Part shown: in pieces, positions 31,924 through 34,807 of the stretch
Layout: every line of letters starts with the position of its first letter
How positions within the stretch are numbered: the stretch's first letter is position 1
Assembly (NCBI GenBank): GCA_019428905.1
Contig: JAHYJN010000028.1
Location: forward strand, 1 to 34,807
DNA from: Candidatus Brevefilum sp.
Lineage (GTDB): Bacteria > Chloroflexota > Anaerolineae > Anaerolineales > Anaerolineaceae
Direction: 5' to 3'
Length of the DNA: 34,807 bases
Notes under the pieces: generated by a model
What the model was told of the DNA's origin: nothing
Database searches by the model: none
What the model saw: only the letters and a program-made list of their open reading frames with translations
Position numbers and translations under genes: made by a program

Positions 31924-32618
31924 ACCCTTTAGCGGACTTGCGGGTGATGCTGGTGGATGACCATAACCTGTTTTTGGAGGGGTTGACCAACCTGCTGGCT
32001 TCGGAGGGCATCCCGGTCGTGGGGACAGCGCATGATGGTTTTAAGGCGTTGACCCTGGCCCGTCAGCTCAAGCCCGATGTGATCCTGATGGATATCCACA
32101 TGCCCAGGTGTGACGGGGTCTCCGCCACCCGCTTAATCAAGGCCGAAATGCCGGAAATTAAAATTGTGATGCTGACCACATCTGAAGACGAGGCGGACCT
32201 GTTTGAGGCTGTGCGAGGTGGTGCCTTGGGCTACTTGCTGAAGAGTTTGGAGGCTGACGCGTTCTTCGCGTATCTGCGGGACCTGCAGTCAGGCCATGCG
32301 CCTTTTTCGCCGGGGCTGGCGGAGAAGATCCTCAAAGCTTTTGCGGAGCAGCCCACCCGGCCGGTGGGCCAGGGTCTACCTGAGGGCCCGGAAGCGGGTG
32401 ATGCCCGGTGTGCCCAGCAGTTGACCCCGCGCCAGATGCAGATTCTGACCCTGGTCGGTCAGGGGCAGACCTACCGTGAAGTGGCGGTCACGTTGAGCAT
32501 CACTGAGCGCACGGTCAAATACCATATGGGTGAGATCCTGGACTGCCTGCACCTGGAGAACCGCGCCCAGGTGATCGCCTACGCCGAGCGGATGAGGTTG
32601 ACGCGGCCGGGGGAATAG
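31920..32618 (+). CDS. NarL/FixJ-type response regulator (232 aa)
   Basis: The receiver domain has the acidic pair in LVDDH, the phospho-acceptor D58 in ILMDIHMPRCDG, the switch Thr in VMLTTSED and the Lys in GYLLKSLEAD. A linker (about 135-165) with a Gly/Glu-rich stretch precedes the LuxR-type helix-turn-helix: LTPRQMQILTLVGQGQTY, then VAVTLSITERTVKYHMGEIL. It is the partner of the kinase: ATGA overlap, same strand. Target genes cannot be told, though the CPBP gene and the downstream repeat-rich region are near. No clear terminator follows. Confidence 0.96.
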   Translation: MNPLADLRVMLVDDHNLFLEGLTNLLASEGIPVVGTAHDGFKALTLARQLKPDVILMDIHMPRCDGVSATRLIKAEMPEIKIVMLTTSEDEADLFEAVRGGALGYLLKSLEADAFFAYLRDLQSGHAPFSPGLAEKILKAFAEQPTRPVGQGLPEGPEAGDARCAQQLTPRQMQILTLVGQGQTYREVAVTLSITERTVKYHMGEILDCLHLENRAQVIAYAERMRLTRPGE

Positions 32619-32706: not shown

Positions 32707-32775
32707 CCAGTGTTGTGCTCTGATGATGGTACTGTTGGCAACTGGACCAATCTTTCAAACCAACTACTCATCGTA

Positions 32776-32797
32776 GCGACGTTGCATGCAACGTCGC
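32776..32797. repeat. Perfect 22-bp palindrome (REP-like)
   Basis: The half-site GCGACGTTGCA is followed directly by its reverse complement TGCAACGTCGC, a perfect palindrome with no loop. It is not near a promoter. It resembles short palindromes repeated many times in environmental bacterial genomes; only one copy is in this window. Confidence 0.75.
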
Positions 32798-32841
32798 CAC
32801 GGTATAAATTACCAATCATCTCCCACTTTTAGTTCATGGTC

Positions 32842-32911
32842 GATTGGCGGGAATTGTGTGTCCTTTTGATGTGTTGGCGAATTGACCCATTGTTTTGATG
32901 CCCCCCAACCC
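32842..32911. repeat. Covarying hairpin element, copy 1 (divergent)
   Basis: Left arm ATTGGCGGG (from 32843) pairs with CCCCCCAAC at the right end (32901-32909); the interior carries CTTTTGATGTGTTGGCGAA and TTTTGATG. It has the same arrangement as the copies at 33534-33611 and 34251-34330 but is more degenerate. Confidence 0.6.
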
Positions 32912-32934
32912 ACCCTACGCCAACCTTCGTCCTT

Positions 32935-33189
32935 GCGAGGAACCTCGACAGAGGTGACGAAGCAATCTCAGGGGTGGAGGAGGTGGGGAATAATTCATTG
33001 GCATCCATTCACCAAAAGCTAAATCTCAAATTGCTCATTTCCATGATGCATTTCAGTTGGTACTGCGCTCGGTGTAAAGAAAGGTGATGCTGCGCTCATT
33101 ACAATGCCAAGGTATTTTTTGACCATTCACTATTCACCGTGTACCATTCACTATCACTGAGATTGCTTCTTCGCTGCGCTCATCGCAAT
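32935..33189. mobile_element. MITE-like element, unit 1 (255 bp)
   Basis: This non-coding unit begins GCGAGGAACC and ends with CTGAGATTGCTTCTTCGCTG then CGCTCATCGCAAT. Its ends are imperfect inverted repeats (GACGAAGCAATCTCAG against CTGAGATTGCTTC, and GCGAG against its counterpart near CGCAA). A near-identical unit lies exactly 273 bp downstream. No transposase is encoded. Target-site duplications are not obvious. Confidence 0.6.
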
Positions 33190-33207
33190 GACACCCATTT
33201 TGTCGTG

Positions 33208-33462
33208 GCGAGGAACCTCGACAGAGGTGACGAAGCAATCCCAGTGGTGGACGAGGTGGGGAATAATTCGTTGGCATTCGTTCACAGAAAGCTGTATCTC
33301 AAATTGCTCATTTCCACGATGCATTTCAGTTGGTACTGCGCTCGGTGTAAAGAAAGGTGATGCTGCGCTCATTACAATGCCAAGGTATTTTTTGACCATT
33401 CACTATTCACCGTGTACCATTCACTATCACTGAGATTGCTTCGTCGCTGCGCTTCTCGCAAT
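33208..33462. mobile_element. MITE-like element, unit 2 (255 bp)
   Basis: A second copy in the same orientation, with a fixed offset of 273 bp across its whole length and only scattered substitutions (for example ATTCATTGGC against ATTCGTTGGC). An 18-bp spacer (33190-33207) separates the units. The right end abuts the first ACCCTAACGGGCAC repeat. Confidence 0.6.
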
Positions 33463-33532
33463 ACCCTAACGGGCACACGTGACAGAAGGTGGTGCGCTCC
33501 TCGCAATACCTTAACGGGCACGCGTGACAAAA
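33449..33532 (+). repeat. Tandem repeat with ACGGGCAC(A/G)CGTGACA core, 45-bp period
   Basis: GCGCTTCTCGCAATACC then CTAACGGGCACACGTGACA (33449-33484) recurs 45 bp on as GCGCTCCTCGCAATACC then TTAACGGGCACGCGTGACA (33494-33530). A third copy of the ACGGGCACGCGTGACAAAA part is at 34224-34250. The last two copies each lie directly before a covarying hairpin element. Confidence 0.75.
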
Positions 33533-33533
33533 T

Positions 33534-33611
33534 GGTGGGGGGGCGGGGAAAGCGCTTCATTTTGATGTGTTGGTGAAACCATGCTTATTATGATGCCCGC
33601 CCCCCCTCCCC
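33534..33611. repeat. Covarying hairpin element, copy 2
   Basis: Left arm GGGGGGGCGGG (33537-33547) pairs perfectly with CCCGCCCCCCC (33596-33606). The interior AGCGCTTCATTTTGATGTG then TTGGTGAAACCA is almost identical to that of copy 3, while the arms differ in step. Confidence 0.75.
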
Positions 33612-33719
33612 GCACAAGCTGGATGGGTATTCGTTCCGAAAAAAAACGAACCGAAACGAATAAAAGGTTGCCTTAGCGTTCATCGATCCCCAACTCTTCT
33701 GCAAACTCGTGAATGGTCC

Positions 33720-33782
33720 CGCTTCAGCCCCTTACGCTGCGCAACAGGGGTTCCGCTATGCTCTAGGGAGGCTGCGCACTGA
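33720..33782 (+). repeat. 63-bp CGCTTCAGCCCCTTACGCTG repeat, copy 1
   Basis: It begins CGCTTCAGCCCCTTACGCTG, has AACAGGGGTTCCGCTATGCT inside, and ends GGGAGGCTGCGCACTGA. Internal pairing of CCCCT with AGGGG and of AGCCCC with GGGAGGCT suggests a folded element. Other copies: 34056-34117 and 34132-34194. Confidence 0.8.
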
Positions 33783-34055
33783 GTTGTCCCATTTCGCTGC
33801 GCTTTCGCCCCCTGGCGGTGGTTTCTGCCGACATGATCAAAGCTCCTTTCGTGGTATGTGCGCGTGAGGACAGAACATGTGTTCTGGTTTAATGAGAGGA
33901 TAACATAAAGCACGCGGGTTTTCAATCCGTTAAAAGCGGCAAAAAGAGGCGTTTTTCTGCCACAAGCGGCAGCCCAGGGAGAAAGTCGGTAGAGGGTAGG
34001 CGGTAGAGGGTCGTCGGTAGTTGGTAGCTGATAGTTGAAAGGTCCCACTCAGCTT

Positions 34056-34117
34056 CGCTTCAGCCCCTTCGCTGCGCGTCAGGGGTTCCGCTGCGCTACA
34101 GGGAGGCTTCGCACTGA
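34056..34117 (+). repeat. 63-bp CGCTTCAGCCCCTT repeat, copy 2
   Basis: It is one base shorter, with CCCCTTCGCTGCGCGTCAGG and ACAGGGAGGCTTCGCACTGA. It is only 14 bp from copy 3. Confidence 0.8.
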
Positions 34118-34131
34118 ATGGTGAATAGTCA

Positions 34132-34194
34132 CGCTTCAGCCCCTTACGCTGCGCGACAGGGGTTCCGTTATGCTCCAGGGAGGCTGCGCACTGA
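34132..34194 (+). repeat. 63-bp CGCTTCAGCCCCTTACGCTG repeat, copy 3
   Basis: It is closest to copy 1: only a few substitutions (GACAGGGGTTCCGTTATGCT inside), ending GGGAGGCTGCGCACTGA. Confidence 0.8.
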
Positions 34195-34250
34195 TTTGTC
34201 GCATAATTATCGACACAGAGGGATACCCTAACGGGCACGCGTGACAAAAA

Positions 34251-34330
34251 ATTTGTGGGTTGGCGGGGAATGCGCTTCATTTTTATGTGTTGGTGAAACC
34301 ACGATTGTGGTGATGCCCGCGAACCCAAAT
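34251..34330. repeat. Covarying hairpin element, copy 3
   Basis: Left arm ATTTG-TG-GGTT-G-GCGGG (34251-34267) pairs with CCCGC-G-AACC-CAAAT (34316-34330), apart from a 2-nt bulge and one mismatch. The interior TGCGCTTCATTTTTATGTG then TTGGTGAAACCA matches copy 2. Confidence 0.75.
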
Positions 34331-34396
34331 TCCTAATACCTGATTCCTAATACCTCATTACTATTCACTATTCACTTTTCACTGCTCACCAAATCA

Positions 34397-34494: not shown

Positions 34495-34807
34495 ATGGCC
34501 GTTAAAAAATGTGTATTGGTTTACGGTCGGTGTTTGAATTTAGCCGGCGTGGCCGCCTGCCTTAAGTTGGACGCGGGCCTGGATGTCCACCTGGCTGACC
34601 CCTACCAGTGCAGCGCCAAGGAGGTGCTGGAGGCCTTTAACCCCGAGACGATCATCTACGACCTGACCGACCCGCCCGCCGACCTGGACCTGGCCCTGCT
34701 GGGTGACCGGCCCGGCACCCAGCTGATCGGCGTGGACCCCTCCAGCGATGACGTGCTGGTGCTGACGGGCAAGCGCAGCCGGGCCGTGACGATGGGCGAA
34801 CTGACCG
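34495..34807 (+). CDS. Receiver-like protein of unknown function, N-terminal part only
   Basis: The gene runs off the window after 104 codons. The visible part starts MAVKKCVLVYGRCLNLAGVA and has alternating beta strands and helices like a response-regulator receiver: VLVYG, then VHLADP, then ETIIYDLTDPP (D at the phospho-acceptor-like position) and QLIGVDPSSDDVLVLTGKR. The acidic pair after strand 1 is missing, so it is a degenerate receiver at best. AGAGG lies 6 nt before the ATG. Codon use is strongly GC3-rich (CTG, GAC, GCC), unlike the AT-rich left part of the window and more biased than most neighbours. Confidence 0.65.
   Translation, partial: MAVKKCVLVYGRCLNLAGVAACLKLDAGLDVHLADPYQCSAKEVLEAFNPETIIYDLTDPPADLDLALLGDRPGTQLIGVDPSSDDVLVLTGKRSRAVTMGELT

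Follow-up and report, generated by a model that had tools for sequence, protein, structure and literature searches.

A short hairpin is the usual defining feature of REP elements. The GTAG-tagged REPs surveyed by Di Nocera et al. (2013; PMC3733652) are 20–40 bp long, with stems of 6–13 bp and loops commonly of 2–4, in some types up to 27, and the survey discarded repeats whose loop length or composition was unusual for their family. In the REPINs of Bertels and Rainey (2011; PMC3116915), two REP sequences are joined in a doublet, commonly at a distance of 71 or 110 bp. TnpA-REP recognises its elements through the GTAG and the stem-loop, as described in PMC8266576, and published REP detection has been filtered on a short hairpin (PMC6006769, PMC3733652).

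The window, by which we mean the whole 34,807-nt stretch that was analysed, is contig C129 of a 3.04-Mb draft genome (G000; 149 contigs; a 92%-complete assembly) and contains three hairpins that we compared with these systems. Our favoured interpretation, which we hold with good though not full confidence, is that they are decayed singlets of a GTAG-headed, REP-like family, presumably mobilised by RAYTs (REP-associated tyrosine transposases), with a long loop and a restricted length. Like the GTAG REPs of the survey (PMC3733652), intact elements of this family carry GTAG at one end of a palindrome, often form head-to-head dimers, are extragenic and, in two sister genomes, flank RAYT genes; unlike them, their length is 80 nt, with a loop of about 48 nt, or 91 nt, with a loop of about 67 nt. 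They share with REPINs (PMC3116915) kept ends and a kept spacer length, but each GTAG-headed unit here has a single stem made from two distant arms, and it is two such units that form a pair. As with the TnpA-REP subclasses of PMC6006769, whose REPs include "double foot" and atypical forms, a RAYT lineage is matched to a REP shape and a few "double foot" copies occur; the automatic detection described there required a loop of 2–5 nt or a second paired stem, and the elements here have neither. The window copies themselves are extragenic and repeated, the arm family occupying 15 places in the genome, a moderate number. At 80–81 nt, with a loop of about 48 nt, they exceed the 20–40 bp and short loop of GTAG REPs, and none of the three has the head-to-head family partner beside it that would give the two inverted REPs of a REPIN. 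Because published GTAG REPs are short and we found no recognisable description of GTAG REPs with long, fixed-length loops in the main texts of the open-licence literature, we class the window copies neither with canonical REPs nor with REPINs. They look like REPs, probably work like them, and represent a variant with a long loop.

The hairpins lie in a repeat-rich stretch between the end of a gene at 32618 and an open frame that starts at 34495 and runs off the contig. Mechanical ORF calling gives two minus-strand frames (122 and 132 aa) that overlap the stretch, one of them also copy 3. The earlier note had described three related hairpins with a common core; this held, with bounds corrected to those in Table 1, which on the minus strand start at the end equivalent to GTAG and extend as far as the distant arm, and the three arm pairs agreed with its reading when we re-read them in the sequence. 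Other repeats were seen in the same region: a 264-nt direct repeat (32926–33189 and 33199–33462; 94% identity) between copies 1 and 2 that contains TTGCGAGGAACCTCGACAGAGGTGACGAAGCAATCTCAG-type repeats, an 84-nt repeat rich in CAGCCCCTTACGCTGCGC and CAGGGGTTCCGCT (33709–33792, 34044–34127 and 34121–34204, the latter two 62 and 92% identical to the first), and, at 32772–32801, a loopless, near-perfect 15-nt palindrome, CGTAGCGACGTTGCA/TGCAACGTCGCCACG.

Table 1. Hairpin copies and box motifs in the window.
Feature	Position	Strand	Description
Copy 1	32838–32918	−	81-nt GTAG-headed long-loop element; CTAC at 32915–32918 is an intact GTAG on the minus strand; without box
Copy 2	33534–33613	−	80-nt element; head GCGG; G-C in place of T-A at arm pairs 7 and 8, with both sides changed
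Copy 3	34254–34333	−	80-nt element; head GGAA; single mismatch within the stem
Box AACGGGCACGCGTGACAAAA	33513–33532	+	Directly before copy 2
Box	34230–34249	+	Directly before copy 3
Third box	33468–33487	+	2 mismatches; followed only by GGTGG (33488–33492)

Read on the minus strand, the hairpins are GTAG-headed and take the form GTAGGGTGGGTTGGCGGG...CCCGCCAACCCACC. A fourth copy, with both core and box, lies on another contig of the same genome (G000:C97:5712-5814). GTAG is preserved in only two of the four copies, copy 1 and the C97 copy, which on the minus strand start with GTAGGGTGGGTTGG and end with the complementary arm, with mismatches; its absence from copies 2 and 3, like the want of a head-to-head partner at all three window copies, counts against the mobile reading. 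The core GATGTGTTGGTGAAACCA matched twice in the window at up to 3 mismatches, where 0.04 matches were expected; copy 1 is more diverged and was recovered through repeat finding and BLAST. As the conserved part of the element, which is how it had been presented, the core stands within the four-copy subfamily and gives way in the wider family, where conservation falls on the arms and the loop varies freely. We also tried the core as a family marker: at up to 3 mismatches it matched in 10 of 400 genomes of the phylum, namely its own and nine others at 2–3 mismatches, and because a reversed control matched in six genomes, the nine were taken as chance and not read individually. A gapped core pattern gave four matches in genome contigs and one in viral contigs, with flanks that displayed no matching arms. 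Copy 2 together with its boxes had no BLAST match among plasmids and phages.

Judged from the arms, the window hairpins belong to a larger family that is centred on the window's genus. An intact member consists of GTAG, an arm of 10–14 nt (GGTGGGTTGGCGGG), a loop of free sequence and the complementary arm, for a total of about 80 or 91 nt. Searching with an 18-nt arm at up to 3 mismatches gave 32 matches in the own genome, where the reversed control gave 12, and 43 in G004, where it gave 4, while many of the 37 genomes searched were at control level. A search for exact matches to both arms 48–78 nt apart, which in the relatives included an exact GTAG, gave matches in 13 of 147 genomes of the family against none for the reversed control; in the own genome this pattern occurred at nine places (control, 0), and viral contigs yielded no match. 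On reading the matches, we recognised typical members in eight of the genus's 16 genomes (G000, G003, G004, G006, G007, G008, G012 and G014) and one member with a GCAG head in G002. Outside the genus, G531 has one member and G551 a variant, and the matches in G013, G546 and G547 look different. The 15 places in the own genome are on C19 (2), C67, C82, C110, C111 (4), C124 (2), C97 and the window (3); partnerless single arms occur on C87 and C121. Among neighbouring pairs no more than 60 nt apart in the fetched loci, which were not randomly chosen, 26 of 33 are head-to-head, five tail-to-tail and two in tandem. At three loci of G004 (L101, L102 and L150), pairs of a short and a long element or of an 80- and a 91-nt element recur in tandem, with periods of about 238, 250 and 221 nt.

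The link to mobility comes from RAYT genes. Y1 transposases, RAYTs among them, were detected in 35 of 37 relatives, compared with 5 of 14 control genomes. The search for a REP-type (Y1) transposase that the earlier note had proposed was positive, with RAYT genes present in the own genome. Seven RAYTs exceeded the 80-bit cut-off of NCBIfam NF047646, five of five at 141.6–184.3 bits and the G551 and G028 proteins at 175 and 187.4; three of four passed the Pfam Y1_Tnp cut-off, the other missing it at 21.2 versus 23. The RAYT of G012:C1, whose protein matches the TnpArep structure PDB 4er8 at 4e-33, has 91- and 93-nt elements on both sides, one with the head GCAG, and that of G014:C61 has 79–80-nt elements on one side and a decayed 63-nt element on the other. 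A RAYT flanked by elements of the family was not found in the own genome, nor was a RAYT of the long-loop clade in its 92%-complete assembly, which speaks against our favoured interpretation, and no excision or empty site was seen. In a tree of 33 RAYTs the two genes are sisters (99/93), and the G028:C9 RAYT, flanked by 62/63-nt elements, joins them (95/90). Mapping REP labels onto the tree required two changes, as few as in 1 of 500 shuffles, a post hoc test given that G028 was labelled after its closeness was known and that 14 of the 33 rows have no REP label. The G551:C37 RAYT, which lies beside 82- and 106–107-nt elements, sits apart in the tree, and the long-element trait therefore arose twice or was repeatedly lost.

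At seven other inspected RAYTs of the genus (own C53 and C113, G012:C9, G006:C33, G003:C71, G014:C33 and G010:C2) we found GTAG REPs of 28–30 nt; the two in the own genome carry other GTAG REPs, of 29 nt, which counts against our favoured interpretation. No such REP pair was found near own C89 (the third Y1 match), G004:C5 or G003:C193. The RAYT on G000:C53 (L085, 1384–3267) lies amid about two dozen head-to-tail copies of the 29-nt REP GTAGGGTGGGCAGTTCCCGCCTGCCCACC, mostly 43–45 nt apart. Because relatives of the hairpins flank a RAYT gene in sister species, the window hairpins are probably mobile DNA rather than RNA genes. Hairpin-guided mobility of the REP type, one of the readings offered earlier, is thus the best supported, with RAYTs in the own genome and related hairpins flanking RAYTs in two sister genomes. 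The four-copy subfamily, which has no visible cognate RAYT in the window genome, is probably dead or nearly so.

The earlier note had taken compensatory changes in the arms as a sign of selection on folding or of hairpin-guided mobility. The three window copies alone cannot establish covariation, but the wider 80-nt class supports it: with the window copies included, 11 double-changed cells were counted, against 2.7–3.0 in shuffles (0 of 1000 reached 11), and without them 8, reached by 2 of 1000. Sliding the partner by 1–3 columns reduced pairing in this class from 0.93 to at most 0.54. The 91-nt class showed no excess of compensatory change (10 versus 11.4 in shuffles); it retains one reverse-complement duplicate pair, while the 80-nt class was recounted without its duplicate. 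Such changes could instead arise by template switching at imperfect palindromes rather than by selection, a process compatible with RAYT-driven mobility and one that we think less likely than not. In copy 2 a run of seven Gs is paired by a run of seven Cs, as arm copying could produce, and some of the compensatory changes in the 80-nt class could have this origin; template switching alone, however, would not keep arms and lengths across many elements with unrelated loops.

Length is the other feature that these elements keep. In a length-blind sample taken by the left arm only, which includes tandem copies and is biased towards the GGCGGG arm, 36 of 39 arms had a partner, at 33 nt (3), 77–82 nt (21) or 90–93 nt (12), and no partner was found at other distances up to about 240 nt; in about 106 shuffled bases, a partner would arise by chance in 0.5% of cases. 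Of 109 loop clusters we kept 74, dropping 25 by locus (other genera or subfamilies), six with non-GTAG heads and four outside 77–95 nt. The kept clusters comprise 25 of 80.1 nt (sd 1.5) and 49 of 91.4 nt (sd 1.1), with about 14 paired positions in the 80-nt and about 10 in the 91-nt class. Lengths of 84–88 nt did not occur outside G551 among 127 distinct exact-GTAG elements; the 17 of 172 entries with such lengths in the raw list start inside or just before an element or are G551 members. Median loop identity was 0.479 in the 80-nt class and 0.493 in the 91-nt class, versus 0.460 and 0.477 after shuffling, a near-shuffle level at which common descent is almost erased and length still kept. Near copies differed by 47 indels versus 537 substitutions in 80 pairs, which are not independent; at this ratio a saturated loop would be expected to have gathered several indels. 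On the sequences compared, fixed length despite the expected indels is an argument for a constraint on length, not proof of it, and descent from two ancestors could explain part of the near-constancy. As a candidate source of the loops we considered captured spacers: the 14 own-genome matches of eight own-genome loops were all the elements themselves, and no phage match was found.

The two sizes could also be explained if the arms were paired sites of a protein that loops double-stranded DNA, the 11-nt step between them being one helical turn. The spacing of the classes and the empty interval between them in the length-blind sample agree with this explanation, which we nevertheless regard as quite unlikely: other lineages have elements of 62/63, 82–85 and 106–107 nt, which form no clean 10.5-nt ladder and make us doubt helical phasing as the sole rule, and the association with RAYTs would go unexplained.

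Slightly less probable still is that the hairpins are structured RNAs or transcription terminators selected for RNA folding. As RNA, copies 1–3 gave folding z-scores of +1.0, −2.6 and −2.2 on the plus strand and −0.4, −2.3 and −2.1 on the minus strand, so that folding is somewhat better than in shuffles for copies 2 and 3; as DNA, the minus strand gave 0.0, −2.0 and −2.2, and the C97 copy, at −5.1, folds far better than shuffles. The compensatory arm changes and one terminator-like pattern inside copy 2 (33540–33558) also fit an RNA function. Set against this, folding of the window copies is modest and alike on both strands and copy 1 does no better than shuffles, Rfam had no match in the window, terminator-like sites are about as frequent in the region as in shuffles (2 versus 1.9), and the loops have next to no common sequence and no clear internal pairing, mutual information over 26 sequences (no formal test) revealing no clear stem. 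An RNA function would moreover leave the GTAG head and the RAYT neighbourhood unexplained, and the RNA half of the "mobile or RNA unit" suggested earlier was not upheld. An ordinary MITE, in which filler lies between terminal inverted repeats and a DDE transposase works on the double-stranded ends to move the element, is just as improbable: inverted ends around unrelated filler and tandem arrays would suit it, but the ends are asymmetric, most copies having GTAG at one end only, and the transposase beside the relatives is a Y1/RAYT enzyme.

A box motif accompanies the subfamily. That the same box directly precedes copies 2 and 3 had been observed before; the third box, the minus-strand GTAG head and the many elements with the same arms and unrelated loops go beyond that description. 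At up to 3 mismatches the box matched three times in the window against 0.02 expected, and the GGTGG after the third box may be the remnant of a further hairpin arm. A hairpin or putative arm remnant follows the box at four of four sites in the own genome, whereas the same hairpin follows at none of three sites in G012; the box has four copies in G000 and three in G012, is absent from the other 35 relatives and is present in 9 of 400 genomes of the order, adjoining other sequences outside the own genome. Given the three G012 boxes, the composite of box and hairpin postulated earlier is not obligate; the box is a motif in its own right, which came to be joined to the four-copy subfamily. It accompanies three of the four subfamily copies, which counts against a unit running only from GTAG to the far arm, since such a unit leaves the box unexplained. 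We also considered the box as a hairpin-loop motif, but just two of 16 box sites had a stem beyond shuffles (reached by no more than 10 of 200). On visual inspection, the core of the box, ACCCTAACGGGCACACGT, lies between the arms of other palindromes at L217, L218, L219, L222 and L225 (near 1503), with CTCCCCCAAAT...ATTTGGGGGAG as an example from L218.

If the hairpins are indeed a long-loop form of RAYT-mobilised REP, the two distant arms would pair in the single-stranded DNA of the element, and a RAYT (an HUH/Y1 transposase) would recognise the GTAG and the stem, cut, and move the element. Selection would then act on head, arms and length and not on loop sequence. More tentatively, and with rather less than even confidence, we propose that one RAYT lineage reads GTAG, stem and loop length and ignores the sequence of the loop, which would account for unique loops, two set sizes and the frequent 80/91 heterodimers. 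Should this be true, such elements could in principle serve as carriers of any short single-stranded cargo. The family behind the three copies is more interesting than the copies themselves: the association of a RAYT clade with a family whose long loops vary freely in sequence and are nearly fixed in length suggests that counts of REP diversity are too low, and the family offers a direct test of what RAYTs measure, be it sequence, stem or distance.
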